Positions 4,258 to 10,788 of a DNA stretch of 64,000 bases are shown one piece after another. The DNA comes from Planctomycetota bacterium. GTDB taxonomy: Bacteria > Planctomycetota > Planctomycetia > Pirellulales > Pirellulaceae. Position numbers and translations under genes: made by a program. Position 1 is the stretch's first letter. Each line of letters begins with the position of its first letter. The notes under the pieces were generated by a model. It saw only the letters and a list, made by a program, of their open reading frames with translations, was not told where the DNA came from and did no database searches. Where the stretch lies: contig VGZC01000026.1 of NCBI GenBank assembly GCA_016872725.1, forward strand, positions 1 through 64,000. Direction: 5' to 3'.

Positions 4258-4596
4258 CGATCGAGGTCTCGTGTCGTCATGGTTCGGGGACTTCAAAGTC
4301 CCGCAAGTAAGTCCCGCAAGTCTACTTCTCGTGCCGCGATTGGGCGATGCGCCGGCCTGGATCGAAGACATGGCCGCGTCCCATCTTCTCCAGCTTGTCG
4401 ATTCGAACTAACCGGAAGAGGCGTCCCAATGCGCAAAGACTCCCTGATGCTCAAGATCATCACGAACGGAACCGATAATCAGAGCACGGCCTAACACCGG
4501 ATGGGCCGTCGCGCCCCATGGGTTTCGAAACGCGCGACGTTTCGCGGCCGATCCAGGGCGAATGGAACGATCCGACCGGGATCTGGGAGCACCGAC
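4258..4596. other. Divergent intergenic region, possible 21-residue ORF
   Basis: This is the gap between metH and the divergent membrane-protein gene. It contains a 13-bp tandem duplication (agtcccgcaagta) near 4300. A short plus-strand reading frame runs from ATG 4429 to TAA 4494 (21 codons) and has a plausible ribosome site (gaagagg) seven bases upstream. Nothing else supports it as a gene. I see no convincing promoter and no cobalamin or SAM riboswitch core. Confidence 0.3.
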
Positions 4597-5592
4597 ATGT
4601 CGACCGATTCCGCCGTTCGACCCCGCCGCCGTACCGACGGTCCGGCTCGCAACTCGGAAAAGGCGTTTGCCGAAATCCCCATCCTCCTGCGTTTACCCGA
4701 TCTCTATCCGTCCCGCGCCGTGGACGCCGCCATCGCCCGATTATCGACTCCATCGCACGCATCTCCCATGCCCGCGAGCGCCCTTGAATCGCCGTCCGAA
4801 TCGCCGAACGCCCAATGGCAGCGCGTCGACTCCGTTGCCGTATCCAAACCGCCGGCTCCGCCGATCGTCCCATCGCTTCCGGATTGGAGCAGCCGCATCA
4901 TTGTCGCGGGCATCATTGTCACCGCGTTGGTCTGCGCGGTCATGATCCAAACGCGATCCCATCCCGATACCGATTCACCATCCGCCGTCCGCGACACCAC
5001 CGCGCATCATGCGACCGCCGGCAGGTCGGATCGCCCGCCCGGTCTGAACGAATCGGGATCGTCGGACGCCGCGCGAGTCGCCACACGGGACCCGGCCCAT
5101 GCGAACCATGGTCCAAACAACCGTGCCAACAACGGTCCGAATCGCGGGCCGCACGACGGTGCGAACGAATGGAACGCCGGTAACGACCCCGGTTCCTCGG
5201 AACAGGGGCCGAATTCGCCTATTTCCGCGCCGAGTCGCGCGCGGGCCTACCCAGGTATGCCGGCCGAGTTCGAGGAACCGGTCGGCAAGTCGACAAGCGG
5301 TCCGGATTCCCGGCGTGTCGTGACGATTCCCAGCACGGTTCCGTCCTCCGCAAATCCGTCCGAATCGGTCCAATCGCGGGAGGTCGCCCACGATGGGCCA
5401 TCGCGGGACGGGCCATCGCGGGATGGGCCATCGCGGGACGGGCCATCGCGGGACGGGCCATCGCGGGACGGGCCGTCGCCGGACGGAACCGCTCAGACAG
5501 CCGCGGCCTACCCGATCCACGACGCGCCGATCCATGACAAATGGGATGGCCCGGACATGCCGCGCACGGTTCGCGCTCGCCACTCGGAATAG
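4597..5592 (+). CDS. Single-pass membrane protein with GPSRD repeats
   Basis: I do not recognise the family. From the ATG at 4597, preceded by gggag eight bases upstream, the protein has 331 residues. About 90 residues are Pro/Ser/Arg-rich. One hydrophobic segment follows (IIVAGIIVTALVCAVMI, about residues 104-120). The rest is a long polar tail rich in Asn, Gly, Pro and Ser that includes six tandem copies of the pentapeptide GPSRD/GPSPD encoded by a 15-bp array. The tail looks disordered and probably lies outside the membrane. The BY-kinase-like ATPase gene follows 62 bases later on the same strand. A membrane protein beside such an ATPase suggests a partner or adaptor role, but this is inference from position only. 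Confidence 0.75.
   Translation: MSTDSAVRPRRRTDGPARNSEKAFAEIPILLRLPDLYPSRAVDAAIARLSTPSHASPMPASALESPSESPNAQWQRVDSVAVSKPPAPPIVPSLPDWSSRIIVAGIIVTALVCAVMIQTRSHPDTDSPSAVRDTTAHHATAGRSDRPPGLNESGSSDAARVATRDPAHANHGPNNRANNGPNRGPHDGANEWNAGNDPGSSEQGPNSPISAPSRARAYPGMPAEFEEPVGKSTSGPDSRRVVTIPSTVPSSANPSESVQSREVAHDGPSRDGPSRDGPSRDGPSRDGPSRDGPSPDGTAQTAAAYPIHDAPIHDKWDGPDMPRTVRARHSE
5395..5484 (+). repeat. 15-bp tandem array, six units, in frame
   Basis: The unit gggccatcgcgggac is repeated five times (5395-5469, one copy with a single T for C change), plus a diverged sixth copy (5470-5484). It is in frame and adds GPSRD pentapeptides to the C-terminal tail of the membrane protein. Confidence 0.95.
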
Positions 5593-5654: not shown

Positions 5655-6884
5655 ATGGAGACGACACGCAACCGAACTTTCCTGCGGGCGTTTGTCCAGG
5701 ACCCCAACGGCTCGTCCGCCGTCCCGGTCCCTCACACGACGTTCGAGCCGCCGCGTCGAGGAACGGGTCCCATCGCGAGCGAGCCGTCGGATACCCGGCC
5801 CCGAACCGCGCCGCGCGTCGCGTTCGATGCGCCGAGCGGTTCGCGGCGTTTGGAAAACGGGACGGACGCGTCCCGGCGCGACGGCATCGCCGTTCCATCG
5901 CCGCACGTCCAGTTCCCGTCGACCGGTCCATTTGCGGCGGGGGCCGGCGTGTCCTCGTCGGTTAACGACGCGGCGTTCGCCGCGTCCTGGTATGAGGAAC
6001 CAACGCTGCTCGTCGGCGCCGCCTTCCCGATTTCAGGGCGGCTCGCCGGCGTTCCGGCCGGTCTTCCGGCCGAGCGCGCGGCTCGCGAAGCGCGCGACGC
6101 CGATCCCGACGAGGATGCGGCTCACGGTGCCGGACTGATCGAAGCACCGGGCACACCCGAATCGATCGCGTGCGGCGATTCGACCGTTCATGACGCATCG
6201 GGCTCGCCCTGCGCAGAACCTCGCGGGTTCGTCGCGAATTGGGAAGTCGATCGATTCCGATGGCCCCGCGATTGCGAACGGCTCCACCAACAAATGACGC
6301 CCGCATTCGACGAAGCGGGAAGTCAGCTCCGCGCGGCGACACTCGACGGCATGCGGCTCCTTGCGGTGACGAGCGGGCTTCGCGGCGAGGGGCGGACGAC
6401 GGTCGCGATGTTGCTTGCCCGCGCCGCGGCACGGGCGGGAGTCCGCGTCGCTCTGATCGACGCCGACGCAAAGAACCCTCGGATCGGGCGCCAATTGCAC
6501 ATCGAACTCGAACACGATTGGCGAGACGCCGCGCGCGGGATCGTGCCCGAGGCCGAAGCGGGGATCGCGTCGCTCGACGAATCGATCGCCGTCTTTCCGC
6601 TGACCGACAACGCTCGCGAGGAATCGGTCTTGCCGAACGACGGCCTCTGGCAGCGGTTTTGGACGGCGCTCGGCGCTTACTTCGATCTGGTCATCCTCGA
6701 CTGTGGGCCGACCGACGATCAGCATCCGTTCCAGGCGTTCCGATCGGCGAACGCCGCCATCGTCGTCCGCGACGCGCGCGCCACGGACGAACCGGGAACG
6801 CGCCGCGTCATCGAACAGCTCGTCGGCGGCTCCATCGAAGCGATCGGCATCATCGACAACTATGTGCGAACCAACGCCGCGTGA
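5655..6884 (+). CDS. BY-kinase/CpsD-like P-loop ATPase without tyrosine tail
   Basis: The last 180 of 409 residues form a MinD/ParA-type ATPase fold as seen in bacterial tyrosine kinases of the CpsD/Wzc group. There is a Walker A segment (SGLRGEGRTT, about 237-247), a Walker A-prime segment (VALIDAD, about 265-271) and a Walker B segment (LVILDCGP, about 345-352). The first 200 residues are Pro/Arg-rich and probably disordered. The C terminus (YVRTNAA) lacks the tyrosine cluster of autophosphorylating BY-kinases, in contrast to the Wzc homologue at 36284. It may therefore be a regulatory or degenerate relative, possibly working with the membrane protein just upstream. Function is inferred from the fold only. 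Confidence 0.8.
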   Translation: METTRNRTFLRAFVQDPNGSSAVPVPHTTFEPPRRGTGPIASEPSDTRPRTAPRVAFDAPSGSRRLENGTDASRRDGIAVPSPHVQFPSTGPFAAGAGVSSSVNDAAFAASWYEEPTLLVGAAFPISGRLAGVPAGLPAERAAREARDADPDEDAAHGAGLIEAPGTPESIACGDSTVHDASGSPCAEPRGFVANWEVDRFRWPRDCERLHQQMTPAFDEAGSQLRAATLDGMRLLAVTSGLRGEGRTTVAMLLARAAARAGVRVALIDADAKNPRIGRQLHIELEHDWRDAARGIVPEAEAGIASLDESIAVFPLTDNAREESVLPNDGLWQRFWTALGAYFDLVILDCGPTDDQHPFQAFRSANAAIVVRDARATDEPGTRRVIEQLVGGSIEAIGIIDNYVRTNAA

Positions 6885-6995
6885 TGCGAGCCGATGCGCA
6901 TCGTCGCGGCAGGGTGGTCGATCCGGGAACGCGCGGGGCGCGAGGCCGAGCGATCGGCGTCGCGGGTTGTTCGCGCGCCCCTTGCCCCGCTCGAC

Positions 6996-8528
6996 TCAGT
7001 CCCTGGGCTTCTTACTGAACACGATCCGGTTGATTGCGTTGAGCAGCGCCTTGATGGTGGCTTCGACGGTGTCGGTCGAAACGCCTCGGCCTCGATAGGT
7101 TTCCCCCTCGTGCTCGATTTCCAGCGTCGCTTCGCCCTGCGCGTCGTGTCCAATCGTCGCGCTCCGCACGCGGAAATCCTTGCAGACCGTCTTGACGCCG
7201 GTGATCTTCTCCGTGGCCCAGAACGCCGCGTCGATCGGACCGTCCCCCATCGACGATTCCTCGACGAACTCCTGACCTCCCCGCGCGAGCGTCAACCGGA
7301 CGCGGGGCGGCGACGCCGTGCTCGACGTCACATGGAACGACACAAGGGCCCATTCCTCGTGCGGAACCGCGCGGATCTCCTGTTCGATAAGCACGGCGAT
7401 GTCGCCGTCGTACACTTCCTTCTTCTTGTCGGCCAAGAGCTTGAATTGCTCGAAGACCGTCTGCAACTGTTCGCCCGTGAGCCGATAGCCCATTGCGCGG
7501 GCTCGGTCGGCGAGCGCCGCGCGGCCGCTGTGCTTGCCGAGCACCAGGTCGGTCTTGGCGAAGCCCACGTCCTCCGGCCGCATGATCTCGTAGGTCGTGC
7601 GTTCCTTGAGCAATCCGTCCTGATGGATGCCCGCTTCGTGCGCGAAGGCGTTACGTCCCACAATCGCCTTGTTGCGCTGGACCTGGAGTCCGGTGATGTT
7701 CGAAACCAGCCGGCTGGTCGGCACGAGCCGCCGCGTGTTGACCCGCGTATCGGCGTGATAGTAATCCGAGCGGGTCTTGAGCGCCATGACGAGTTCCTCG
7801 AGCGAGCAATTGCCGGCCCGTTCGCCGATCCCGTTCACCGTGCACTCGACCTGCCTCGCTCCGTTCTCGACGGCGGCCAAGCTATTGGCGACGGCGAGCC
7901 CGAGATCGTTGTGGCAATGGATGCTCAAGGCCGCGCGATCGATGTTCGGGACCTTGTTCATCAAGAAGGCGACCGTTTCCCCCAACTGTTTCGGCACGGC
8001 GTATCCGACCGTGTCCGGGATGTTGATCGTTGTCGCGCCGGCCTGGATCGCCGCTTCGACAACCTGAGCCAGGAAATCGCGTTCCGTCCTCGCGGCGTCC
8101 TCCGGGGAGAACTCGACGTCGTCGCAATGCGCCACCGCGTGCCGGACCCCGGCGACCGCCCGTTCGATGATTTCCGCCTGTGTCATCTTGAGCTTGAATT
8201 CGCGGTGGATCGCGCTCGTCGCCAGGAAGACGTGGATTCGAGGCGACTCGGCGCACTTCAGGGCCTCCCACGCTCGGTCGATGTCGGCCGTATTGCATCG
8301 AGCCAACCCGCACACGGTCACTCCCCGGATCTGGCCCGCGATTTCCCGCACGGCCTCAAAATCGCCCGGCGACGCGATCGGAAACCCGGCTTCGAGGATA
8401 TCGACCTGGAGGTCGACCAGCGCCTGGGCGATTTCGACCTTCTCCGCCAGATTCATGCTCGCGCCCGGGGATTGCTCCCCATCACGGAGCGTCGTGTCAA
8501 AGATCTTGATCCGCCGAGCTTCGGACAT
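6996..8528 (-). CDS. leuA: 2-isopropylmalate synthase LeuA
   Basis: This enzyme condenses acetyl-CoA with 2-oxoisovalerate, the first committed step of leucine synthesis. The catalytic TIM barrel shows TTLRDGEQ (12-19), the metal-binding HCHND (204-208) and NGIGERAGN (232-240). GLARC near residue 74 is typical of bacterial LeuA. A C-terminal regulatory domain of about 120 residues follows, which in this family binds leucine for feedback inhibition. The length of 510 is normal. The ATG at 8528 is preceded by gggaga. Upstream lies a complete attenuator (leader peptide 8675-8734, terminator 8603-8637), so transcription probably responds to charged tRNA-Leu. leuB is at 12317, not in the same operon. 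Confidence 0.96.
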   Translation of the reverse strand: MSEARRIKIFDTTLRDGEQSPGASMNLAEKVEIAQALVDLQVDILEAGFPIASPGDFEAVREIAGQIRGVTVCGLARCNTADIDRAWEALKCAESPRIHVFLATSAIHREFKLKMTQAEIIERAVAGVRHAVAHCDDVEFSPEDAARTERDFLAQVVEAAIQAGATTINIPDTVGYAVPKQLGETVAFLMNKVPNIDRAALSIHCHNDLGLAVANSLAAVENGARQVECTVNGIGERAGNCSLEELVMALKTRSDYYHADTRVNTRRLVPTSRLVSNITGLQVQRNKAIVGRNAFAHEAGIHQDGLLKERTTYEIMRPEDVGFAKTDLVLGKHSGRAALADRARAMGYRLTGEQLQTVFEQFKLLADKKKEVYDGDIAVLIEQEIRAVPHEEWALVSFHVTSSTASPPRVRLTLARGGQEFVEESSMGDGPIDAAFWATEKITGVKTVCKDFRVRSATIGHDAQGEATLEIEHEGETYRGRGVSTDTVEATIKALLNAINRIVFSKKPRD

Positions 8529-8602
8529 CGGAACTCATCTCCCAAGAACTCAAAAAACAAGGAGGAACCGGGCATGCCGGCACGCGAACACCCACGAACG
8601 CC

Positions 8603-8637
8603 AAAAAAAAACCCCAAAGCCTCGCGGCTTCGGGGTT
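8603..8637 (-). terminator. Intrinsic terminator in the leuA leader
   Basis: Read on the minus strand, this is a 12-bp stem closed by a GCGA tetraloop. The arms are aaccccgaagcc and ggctttggggtt, with one G-U pair. A run of nine T residues follows directly. It lies 75 bases before the leuA start codon and points toward leuA, and no minus-strand gene ends upstream that it could serve. It is therefore best read as the terminator of an attenuator. Confidence 0.9.
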
Positions 8638-8675
8638 GTTCTGGTTGAGCACGGAATCGAAGGCCAAACAACCCC
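8632..8675 (-). promoter_or_regulatory. Antiterminator pairing of the leu attenuator
   Basis: The nine bases ggggttgtt (8675-8667) begin at the last base of the leader-peptide stop codon. They are perfectly complementary to aacaacccc (8640-8632), six bases of which are the ascending arm of the terminator stem. The two pairings exclude each other. A ribosome stalled on the Leu codons would leave the upstream arm free to form the antiterminator, while a ribosome reaching the stop codon would cover it and allow termination. Confidence 0.8.
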
Positions 8676-8734
8676 TACCGCCCGCGGTCGGCGAGCGTAA
8701 GCAATCGGCGAAGGCGTAGGGATTGACGGCGCAT
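8675..8734 (-). CDS. Leucine leader peptide (leuL-like), 19 residues
   Basis: This short frame encodes MRRQSLRLRRLLTLADRGR and ends in TAG. Five of its 19 residues are Leu, encoded by CTA, CTT, TTG, CTT and CTC and clustered at positions 6-14. Its stop codon abuts the antiterminator arm, as expected for ribosome-mediated attenuation. The ATG lies seven bases below the -10 element, so the peptide may be translated from a leaderless transcript; no ribosome-binding site is possible in that space. It is placed like enterobacterial leuL, but I infer similarity of mechanism, not descent. Confidence 0.8.
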   Translation of the reverse strand: MRRQSLRLRRLLTLADRGR

Positions 8735-8740
8735 GGTTGG

Positions 8741-8769
8741 TTTATAATCGGCGCGCGCCCCGGGGTCAA
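8741..8769 (-). promoter_or_regulatory. Sigma-70-type promoter of leuA leader
   Basis: On the minus strand TTGACC (8769-8764) and TATAAA (8746-8741) are separated by exactly 17 bases, each matching five of six consensus positions. The predicted start of transcription, near 8734-8735, coincides with the ATG of the leader peptide. On the opposite strand the same bases also read TATAAT (8743-8748), pointing toward the gene at 8820, but no -35 element is found at a usual distance for that direction. Confidence 0.8.
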
Positions 8770-8819
8770 GCGACAATTCCGTCTGGTGGCTTTCGACCCT
8801 TTCGCGTATTCTCCGGCCC

Positions 8820-9296
8820 ATGATCGATTTCGAGATCCAACGATGCACTCGGCGATGCGCCGCGACGGACCGCGAACTGCGGCCAGGCGAAGCCTTCTAT
8901 TCGGTGCTCACCGCATCCGGTGATCAGGTCGTTCGGACCGACTACTCGCTCGACGGCTGGCCCGGCCCGCCCGCCGACGCGGTGGGATGGTGGCGAAGCC
9001 ACATGCCGTCGTCCGAACCGGCTCGGAAATCGTGGGCGCCCGGCGATGTGATGCTCGACTATTTCCAGCGTCTCCCCGAAGGACCTGATCACGACGACCT
9101 GCGGTATGTGCTCGCCCTGCTCATGACCCGCCGCAAGATCGTGACGCATGAATCGACGGAGCGGGACGAACTGGGCCGCGAACGGATGGTCCTGTATTGC
9201 CCTCGCACGGAGCAGGAGTTCCGGGTGGACGTCGTCATACCGGACGCGCGGCGCGCGTCGCGGATCCAGGACGAATTGGGCCGACTGTTCCAATAG
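8820..9296 (+). CDS. Conserved protein of unknown function
   Basis: I do not recognise a named family. The 158-residue protein has no signal peptide or membrane segment. It opens with a Cys pair (about residues 9 and 13) and ELRPGEAFYSVL, has a Trp-rich middle (GWPGPP, GWWR), and carries helical, charged sequence to the end. I place it among proteins typical of planctomycete-like genomes on general resemblance only. A TATAAT is present at 8743-8748. The next gene begins 13 bases after its stop, so the two are probably co-transcribed. Confidence 0.75.
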   Translation: MIDFEIQRCTRRCAATDRELRPGEAFYSVLTASGDQVVRTDYSLDGWPGPPADAVGWWRSHMPSSEPARKSWAPGDVMLDYFQRLPEGPDHDDLRYVLALLMTRRKIVTHESTERDELGRERMVLYCPRTEQEFRVDVVIPDARRASRIQDELGRLFQ

Positions 9297-9308
9297 TGGG
9301 TGGGTCGC

Positions 9309-10280
9309 ATGGACGCGAATGGCCGGCGCGGCGCGGCGCTTCGAAGGCTCGGCTGGCTCGGCCTCGCCGCCATCCTGATCTCGTCGTCGGGCGCGACGTG
9401 CATGCCTTGGGCGAAGTGGAAGACCGACGAGCGGATACCGATCGCTTTCCAACATACGCCGACGATGGGGGAAGTGATCCAAAAAGTCAACCAGAACACG
9501 GCGTCGATCCGCCAGTTGCAGGCCGACGCGGTCCGGATCGCCGCTCCCGGCGCCCCGTCGCTCAAGGCGACTCTCGCGCTCGAACGGCCCCGCAATCTGC
9601 GGATACGCGGCGAACTGCTGATGTCGCGAGAACTCGACATCGGGAGCAACGACACGGCGTTTTGGATCTGGGGCAAGAATGCGACCGGCGCGCTGCTCCA
9701 CGCGAATCACGACGCATTCGCGATGAGTCCGACGAGCGAGTCGTTGCCGATCGATCCCGACTGGCTGCTCGACGCGCTCGGACTCGCCTCCTTCGATCCG
9801 AACGCCCAGCATTCGGGACCGTACGCGCACGGTCCAGGCTCGATGGAGATCCACAGCCAGTTCGTCAATGCGCGAGGCGAACCGTTGGTCAAAGTGACCG
9901 TCGTGCATTCGGTCTACGGCTGGATCCTGGAACAGCAGGTCCGCGATCGACGCAACCGAGTGATCGCGGCGGCCAAGGCATCGAATCACCGGCATTACCC
10001 CGAGGCCGGCGCGACGCTGCCCGACCTCGTCGAAATCCAGATCGCGCCCGGAAGCCCCGCCGCGATCGACCTGCGCATCGACGTCGGTGGATATCGCATC
10101 AACGAACTCGCGCCCACGCCCGATCTCTTCGCCATACCCGCCTTCGACGACTACCCTCACATCAATCTCGCCGATCCGCGCGCGTACGACCAGTGGCGCG
10201 GACTCACCGGCAACGGTACTCCGACCGCCGCCCGCGACGAAGCCTTTCAGCCGGAATACCGAGGCTATACGAGGAAATAG
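9309..10280 (+). CDS. Exported protein of unknown function, LolA/LppX-like candidate
   Basis: From the ATG at 9309 the protein has 323 residues. The N terminus is a clear export signal: three Arg residues followed by LGWLGLAAILISSSGATC. The Cys is not in a perfect lipobox, so lipidation is uncertain. The mature part contains the phrases SIRQLQADAVRI, LKATLALERPRNLRIRGEL and LDIGSNDTAFWIWG. A pattern of extended strands tracking how much a surface or carrier binds is reminiscent of LolA/LppX-type lipoprotein-carrier folds, but I cannot confirm this. It follows the 158-residue gene closely. Confidence 0.75.
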   Translation: MDANGRRGAALRRLGWLGLAAILISSSGATCMPWAKWKTDERIPIAFQHTPTMGEVIQKVNQNTASIRQLQADAVRIAAPGAPSLKATLALERPRNLRIRGELLMSRELDIGSNDTAFWIWGKNATGALLHANHDAFAMSPTSESLPIDPDWLLDALGLASFDPNAQHSGPYAHGPGSMEIHSQFVNARGEPLVKVTVVHSVYGWILEQQVRDRRNRVIAAAKASNHRHYPEAGATLPDLVEIQIAPGSPAAIDLRIDVGGYRINELAPTPDLFAIPAFDDYPHINLADPRAYDQWRGLTGNGTPTAARDEAFQPEYRGYTRK

Positions 10281-10476
10281 AAGGAAGAAGGCTCGGCTCA
10301 TGCCGCGCCGAAAAACACGGAAGGAACAAAGCCCCCGTCTTCCCGTCATCCTATTCCCCTTGCTTCGGTTCGCGGACACGCATTACGATGGAGGCAGGAG
10401 TGACGTGGACGATTTCGGTAGCGCCGCTGCCGCTCGTCGCATGTCGCCCTTCCGCACCCATTCAAGGTCGTCACGC

Positions 10477-10788
10477 ATGATCCACTATTCCTGCGACCGC
10501 TGTCGAAAGACGATCGACCCGAAAGAAGAAGTCCGTTACGTCGTTCGCGTCGAGGCCCACGCCGCGATCGAGCCGCAAGACGATTTCGCCGACGACACGG
10601 ATCGCGATTACCTGGGCGAAATCCAGGACATGCTCGAAATGGGAAGTTCCGACGACGACGCTTTGGCCGACGACGATGCGCCCGCGCGGAGCGCGACGTT
10701 CGATCTTTGCCCCGCGTGCTTCCAGAAATTCGTGCGGAATCCGCTCGGCTGCGAAACGCACGCCCAGCTCGGCTTCAGTACGAACTGA
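10477..10788 (+). CDS. Small zinc-ribbon-like protein
   Basis: This 103-residue protein starts YSCDRC and ends with LCPACFQKF and a further Cys, giving two CxxC knuckles about 75 residues apart that could hold one zinc ion. The stretch between them is very acidic (runs of Asp around residues 38-68). A start at 10441 would add 12 residues without similarity, so I use the ATG at 10477. No function can be assigned. An acidic, Cys-paired protein of this kind might bind metal or another protein. It lies 196 bases after the exported-protein gene. Confidence 0.7.
   Translation: MIHYSCDRCRKTIDPKEEVRYVVRVEAHAAIEPQDDFADDTDRDYLGEIQDMLEMGSSDDDALADDDAPARSATFDLCPACFQKFVRNPLGCETHAQLGFSTN

Follow-up and report, generated by a model that had tools for sequence, protein, structure and literature searches.

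Does leuA in a planctomycete lie behind a ribosome-mediated transcription attenuator, and is such a switch a stray case or a feature of the lineage? The question was raised by the region upstream of leuA in a 64,000-nt stretch of DNA (here called the window) on contig C26 of a 5.24 Mb genome that is 96% complete. The original prediction read a leucine attenuator there and called the genome planctomycete-like, an assignment that agrees with the planctomycete name on 77 of 80 LeuA loci (80 listed of 590 matches). When a case in bacilli was described in 2010, its authors knew of earlier demonstrations of leader peptide systems in Proteobacteria and Actinobacteria only (PMC2965389). A survey of leader genes near their gene includes planctomycetes, and its main text is without leuA (PMC4833913). 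No description of a planctomycete leucine attenuator was found among the literature matches listed, from a search that mostly covered papers outside subscription.

Organization of the leuA leader

All parts of the element lie on the minus strand. A -35 box, TTGACC (8764..8769), and a -10 box, TATAAA (8741..8746), are separated by a 17-nt spacer, and 6 nt lie between the end of the -10 box and the leader ATG. The -35 assignment draws on the sequence and on the promoter position test described below. A promoter scan of 6000-10500 called none; the scan accepts only -10 boxes that end in T, and TATAAA ends in A. The leader peptide ORF, MRRQSLRLRRLLTLADRGR (8675..8734), has 19 codons and runs from the ATG at 8734 to a TAG at 8677-8675. 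Codons 6, 8, 11, 12, and 14 encode Leu (CTA, CTT, TTG, CTT, and CTC). A Leu-rich upstream ORF (uORF) occupies this place in most related loci, with enrichment of CTA.

Four arms account for the pairing. Arm 1, CAATCCCTACGCC (8713..8725), lies inside the leader ORF and pairs with arm 2 to form a protector hairpin (1:2). Arm 2, GGCGGTAGGGGTTGTT (8667..8682), spans the TAG stop and has either arm 1 or arm 3 as its partner. Arm 3, AACAACCCCGAAGCC (8626..8640), pairs with arm 2 in the antiterminator or with arm 4 in the terminator. The 9-base segment GGGGTTGTT begins at the G of the leader TAG and is complementary to AACAACCCC at 8640-8632, in the ascending arm of the terminator. The 3:4 hairpin (8610..8637), identified from its fold and from covariation, is an intrinsic terminator of 12 bp with a GCGA loop, placed between the leader ORF and the structural gene as expected in an attenuator. 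It is followed by nine T (8603..8611), the first two of which lie within the stem. The end of the stem is 81 nt from leuA (6996..8528), the putative regulated gene, which was recognized by LeuA homology and encodes a 2-isopropylmalate synthase of 510 aa. Among seven terminator-like sites in 6000-10500, where shuffles expect 3.1, the attenuator hairpin has the most pairs. The promoter (8769-8741), the 19-codon leader with five Leu codons, the antiterminator arm starting at the stop codon, and the GNRA-capped terminator with its T run had all been named in the original prediction, and this anatomy is confirmed in the sequence.

Upstream of the leader, a gene at 8820-9296 is encoded on the plus strand, divergent from the leader, and was intact, free of internal stops, in 38 of the 41 genomes searched in the family, which indicates that it is a real gene. 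With a real and divergent neighbor, there is no gene upstream whose transcription the terminator would stop. An antisense ORF (8766-10379) has relatives in 22 of the 41 genomes, mostly interrupted by stops. At an E value of 0.1, Pfam gave no match for 8820-9296, for 9300-10280 (also on the plus strand), or for the antisense ORF. Elsewhere in the window, a tandem repeat at 4501-5592 encodes GPSRD units in one frame, and long ORFs cross it on the opposite strand.

Alternative helices and predicted folds

The pairing of arm 1 (8725-8713) with arm 2 (8682-8667), a helix overlooked in the original prediction, has a duplex energy of -19.3 kcal/mol and completes the 1:2 / 2:3 / 3:4 logic of an attenuator. 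The values for arm 2 with arm 3 (8640-8626) and for the 3:4 hairpin are both -22.2 kcal/mol. Nascent RNA extended as far as arm 3 was folded with the 29 nt under a ribosome held unpaired. A ribosome stalled with its A site at codon 6, 11, 12, or 14 yielded the 2:3 antiterminator each time, and RNA without a ribosome formed 1:2. With the ribosome at the stop codon neither helix formed, which leaves 3:4 able to form next. In these predicted folds, 1:2 is thus a protector hairpin giving termination without translation, and 2:3 is an antiterminator that excludes the terminator upon stalling at the control codons; both helices are also backed by the fit of each arm to its own partner, with modest counts for the antiterminator in a fixed register (see below).

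Folding of the alternative structures had been proposed as a check, and its outcome is divided. The nascent RNA switches between 2:3 and 1:2 as expected, but the full-length RNA at equilibrium takes the 3:4 terminator in every state tested, stalled states included. The terminator wins at equilibrium, so the switch must act during RNA synthesis. Attenuators generally depend on such timing.

Conservation of the element in relatives

Loci for comparison came from 60 genomes of the family (30 + 18 loci), a titled set of 80 loci, and 148 genomes covering part of the class (28 + 62 new loci). A strict detector required a uORF of 8-50 codons with at least four Leu in eight codons, followed by a T-tailed hairpin. 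It called 47 of 102 leuA upstream regions (six duplicate loci and two with <400 nt upstream left out), compared to 0/102 reverse complements, 1/510 dinucleotide shuffles, and 0/208 upstream regions of other long ORFs. Terminators of the Isosphaeraceae type, with large loops and broken T tracts, are missed by this detector (1/16 in family f11). A relaxed detector, tuned on these same loci after the Isosphaeraceae-type ones had been read and controlled by reverse complements and shuffles (the other-gene control applies to the strict version only), found a Leu-rich uORF and a terminator before leuA in 142 of 202 unique loci. The corresponding controls gave 1/202 reverse complements and 2/606 shuffles; 14 duplicates among 218 loci and two loci with <350 nt upstream were left out.

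By family code, relaxed calls were made in 45/58 loci of the family of the window (f1), 1/3 of f2, 1/2 of f3, 1/1 of f4, 6/6 of f5, 0/1 of f6, 1/1 of f7, 2/2 of f8, 11/15 of f11, 19/20 of f12, 13/15 of f13, 2/2 of f14, 1/1 of f15, and 3/3 of f16 (f9 and f10 were not represented). Titled loci contributed 36/72, one of them titled Vicinamibacteria. That locus (L107) has a LeuA and an attenuator of planctomycete type although its contig is assigned to another phylum, and is either mis-binned or transferred. The called loci also include L095, from Aquisphaera insulae, a culturable, non-pathogenic planctomycete. In most called loci the T-tailed terminator is separate from the start of leuA. The relaxed detector made no call in 60 of the 202 loci, entire clades among them. 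One f11 locus, L178, has a hairpin of the usual type before leuA without a clear Leu-rich ORF, possibly a decayed leader.

The nearest relative, L003 (LeuA 83% identical), was missed by both detectors and shows the same arms upon reading. Its leader, MAVATTLQLRSMLRGLSRLAW, has the Leu codons CTC, CTA, CTA, CTA, and CTA, and is followed by GGGGTTGTT and by CAACCCCGAG...CTCGGGGTTTTTT. According to the original prediction, a lack of conserved Leu codons and mutually exclusive stems in close relatives would speak against attenuation. The element withstood this comparison in the 142 called loci, in the own-partner fit of 1:2 and 2:3, and in L003.

Leucine codons in the leaders

The leader in the window has 5 Leu among 18 codons (P = 0.017) and 7 Arg among 18 (P = 0.002), both relative to frequencies in 33 long ORFs of the window. 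With Arg enriched as well and a modest Leu content, the window alone could not separate the two amino acids; the related loci do. Across the 142 called leaders, Leu makes up 35% of residues, in keeping with a short leader ORF enriched in codons for what the pathway makes, and the Leu codons of the window are more scattered than in most of these leaders. In 82 loci with a leuA body, CTA accounts for 23.0% of the Leu codons of leaders (132/575) versus 1.6% of those of leuA (48/2,938). CTA and TTA together reach 30.8% in leaders versus 5.1% in leuA (Wilcoxon P = 3e-13). The 142 leaders end in TAG (99), TGA (29), or TAA (14), with a median length of 20 codons and a median gap of 33 nt between leader and hairpin.

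Covariation and fit of the arms to their own partners

In an alignment of 57 loci (56 distinct), the terminator has 10 of 12 pairs changed on both sides, 89.8% of cells paired, and a covariation score above all 500 shuffles, a test that is at least partly circular for 3:4 given that the detector selected on that hairpin. The register of the antiterminator drifts between loci, and counts in a fixed register are modest. One register had 71.7% of cells paired and a score reached by 2/500 shuffles, with its double-changed pairs matched by 354/500; sliding it by -3 gave 32 double-changed cells versus 28. In another fixed register, the covariation score was reached by 48/500 shuffles.

In an alignment-free test, each arm was scored against its own partner and against permuted partners. 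Information on 1:2 and 2:3 is absent from the detector. In 51 strict loci, pairs 1:2, 2:3, and 3:4 beat all 20,000 permutations, and the remaining pairs did not (19,481 for 1:3, 4,771 for 1:4, and 12,284 for 2:4). In 141 loci (1 of 142 dropped), 0/5,000 permutations reached the own-partner fit for 1:2, 2:3, or 3:4, versus 4,070 for 1:3 and 4,120 for 2:4; permutation was within family codes, with the 36 titled loci pooled as one group and thus not within family there. Pair 1:4, outside the model, also leans low in the 141 loci (130/5,000), but not in f1 alone (4,572). The 44 loci of f1 alone gave 0/5,000 for 1:2 and for 2:3.

A Gemmataceae-type set of 17 loci was assembled from 13 loci of f13, which we infer to be Gemmataceae, and L098, L099, L104, and L108 (three of these four titled Gemmataceae). 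When arms were cut by distance from the stop codon, this set gave no 1:2 signal (12,052/20,000) and a weak 2:3 signal (752/20,000). Arms were then anchored on Leu and cut between the final Leu of the stretch with the highest Leu density and the terminator, a definition chosen after the stop-distance result, and the counts became 4/20,000 for 1:2 and 0/20,000 for 2:3, with 1,217 for the control 1:3. Leu-anchored arms gave 0 (1:2) and 1 (2:3) of 20,000 in f12, 33 and 0 in f1, and 256 and 1,544 in Isosphaeraceae-type loci.

Promoter placement

Of 142 loci, 14 have a promoter-like pair (at least 9 of 12) whose end is 5-8 nt upstream of the leader start, where mononucleotide shuffles predict 0.32; some of the 14 are close kin and so not independent. 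Three end 9-26 nt before the start, and from 27 nt onward there is a second, broad cluster. Shine-Dalgarno-like words precede the leader in 1 of the 14 loci of the 5-8 nt type versus 44 of the 128 others. The window belongs to the 5-8 nt type. With the -10 box ending only 6 nt before the ATG, its mRNA should begin at the start codon, and translation of the leader peptide probably uses a leaderless mRNA starting at or next to 8734, a point that the original prediction had overlooked. A precedent is trpL of Sinorhizobium meliloti, whose RNA has the leader ATG at its very 5' end (PMC7298713).

Gene specificity and distribution

The same scan was applied with the fitting amino acid to four other biosynthetic genes, with thresholds, within nine codons, of at least four Leu or six Leu/Ile/Val, three His, or two Trp. 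It gave 0/30 for ilvB (30 of 39 genomes, scanned from the match start), 1/23 for leuC (23 of 31 genomes with a match), 1/30 for trpE (30 of 31 genomes), and 0/30 for hisG (30 loci from 31 genomes). The trpE match resembles a hairpin built of short repeats, and the leuC match resembles what we take to be a PEP-CTERM tail. With 0-1 of 23-30 for these genes, we reject the idea that these genomes use attenuation widely. A LeuA paralogue in the genome of the window has no leader element by the same scan. These results suggest that control of this kind is confined to leuA among the genes tested. LeuC (TIGR00170, 1e-120) was not found in eight of 31 class genomes (G062, G064, G067, G072, G076, G079, G082, and G086), which comprise all seven f13 genomes and the single f15 genome; a different dehydratase subfamily may do the work in them.

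On a FastTree LeuA tree with 128 rows, presence of the element changes at least 9 times, versus 32.3 in label shuffles. For this count, nine loci missed by the relaxed detector were set as present by hand (L003, L011, L015, L019, L022, L024, L064, L066, and L091), and L101 was kept as absent despite a Leu uORF and hairpin there. The element was not called in three clades of the tree, of 17, 7, and 7 rows. The two smaller clades without a detected leader consist of L044, L052, L061, L063, L080, L082, and L097 and of L029, L040, L041, L043, L046, L047, and L077; the third has 17 loci between L069 and L103. The pattern reads as that of an old element lost a few times, on an unrooted tree that cannot prove direction. 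Outside the class but within the phylum, calls were made in 4 of 20 leuA-like loci (20 of 22 genomes with a match). Two loci from another class, L271 and L272 (LeuA 45% identical), have Leu-rich uORFs and GC-rich hairpins before distant leuA-like genes.

Comparison with known systems

At gathering score, Rfam identified only tRNA in the window and likewise no family other than tRNA in 12 related loci. Leu_leader (RF00512) scored 13.9 bits (E value 2.5) at the attenuator, compared to a gathering score of 50. The enterobacterial leuL system shares its parts with the element described here: a Leu-rich leader peptide, alternative arms, an intrinsic terminator, and leuA as the gene. Rare CTA codons are likewise a feature of enterobacterial leuL. 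The two differ in phylum, in the stop codon lying within arm 2, and in a promoter placed here as for leaderless translation.

The LEU element of actinobacteria also has a uORF containing a run of Leu codons upstream of leuA, but it is described as a pseudoknot in which the Leu run and the Shine-Dalgarno box of leuA form the base stem, and classical attenuation was judged unlikely (PMC1262725). The locus here differs in its T-tailed terminator and in an antiterminator over the stop codon. It does not match the LEU element, as judged on a terminator stem placed well before leuA and on the pairing of the Leu region with arm 2 rather than on pseudoknots. S. meliloti trpL is a ribosome-dependent attenuator with RNA starting at the leader ATG, as predicted for our element, for tryptophan and in alphaproteobacteria (PMC7298713); here it is leucine in planctomycetes, leaderless by promoter position in a minority of loci. 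The histidine leader peptides of hisS/hisZ in bacilli likewise lie outside Proteobacteria and Actinobacteria, with another gene and phylum, and neither "planctomyc-" nor "leuA" occurs in the main text describing them (PMC2965389). The planctomycete element is a known mechanism in a new phylum, Gemmataceae-type loci included.

Mechanism and alternative explanations

We consider it very likely, from comparative sequence data, that the element is a ribosome-mediated transcription attenuator of leuA, and the attenuation reading of the original prediction is supported. Several other explanations were weighed. That an ordinary terminator happens to follow a chance ORF is hardly conceivable: the Leu content of the window taken alone reaches only P = 0.017, but the detector calls far exceed their controls, the neighboring gene is divergent, and the arms fit their own partners. 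The detector controls and the divergent neighbor lead us to reject it. A T-box or other metabolite-sensing riboswitch deserves equally little credence. Some Firmicutes control leuA through a T-box, but no Rfam family besides tRNA reached the gathering score in the window or in the 12 related loci, and this explanation too is rejected.

Two further explanations are improbable rather than negligible. The leader and hairpins might act on translation of leuA, on mRNA stability, or via a protein, as proposed for the LEU element, with stalling at Leu codons not being the sensor. The weak and interrupted T tracts of Isosphaeraceae-type loci and the terminator held throughout the full-length equilibrium folds are consistent with this, as is a look-alike leuA leader in Streptomyces coelicolor whose behavior is not that of classical attenuation (PMC1262725). 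It accords poorly with T-tailed terminators set off from the start of leuA in the majority of called loci, with the enrichment of rare CTA in leaders, and with arms 1:2 and 2:3 fitting their own partners. We give similarly low weight to the idea that the regulatory codons in this genome are Arg, or that its peptide is degenerate and the switch decaying. Arg does outnumber Leu in the window leader, where the Leu codons are more dispersed than in most relatives, but the gene is leuA, the nearest relative has five Leu codons, four of them CTA, the arms and promoter of the window are intact, and Leu dominates the 142 leaders.

For the preferred reading, attenuation by a ribosome stalling at Leu codons, we infer the start of transcription, translation of the peptide, and the response to leucine as follows. 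RNA polymerase would start on the A of the leader ATG or immediately next to it, and a ribosome would initiate translation of the leader peptide on the nascent RNA with no Shine-Dalgarno site to guide it. When leucyl-tRNA is ample, the ribosome would reach the TAG and cover arm 2, 3:4 would form, and transcription would end near 8603. When leucyl-tRNA is scarce, the ribosome would stall at Leu codons 6 to 14 and cover arm 1, so that 2:3 could pair before arm 4 is made, the terminator would be pre-empted, and leuA would be transcribed. If no ribosome is present, 1:2 would pair and the terminator would form.

Implications for planctomycetes

Attenuation requires a ribosome close behind RNA polymerase. 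Separated transcription and translation have reportedly been described for Gemmataceae, in a 2014 study. Other work indicates a Gram-negative cell plan for planctomycetes (PMC5394234), by which such a separation is disputed. That the arms of Gemmataceae-type loci fit their own partners would argue that transcription and translation are coupled there, at least at leuA. On balance, we favor, with some reserve, the view that Planctomycetia have an old attenuator dedicated to leuA, leaderless in part of the loci, which would need a ribosome behind the polymerase and would imply coupling at leuA even in Gemmataceae. The findings extend ribosome-mediated attenuation to planctomycetes, where it is no stray case, being found in most class loci examined. 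Coupling of translation to transcription in planctomycetes with deep membrane folds becomes testable, and the element could serve genetic work in the phylum as a native switch predicted to respond to leucine.
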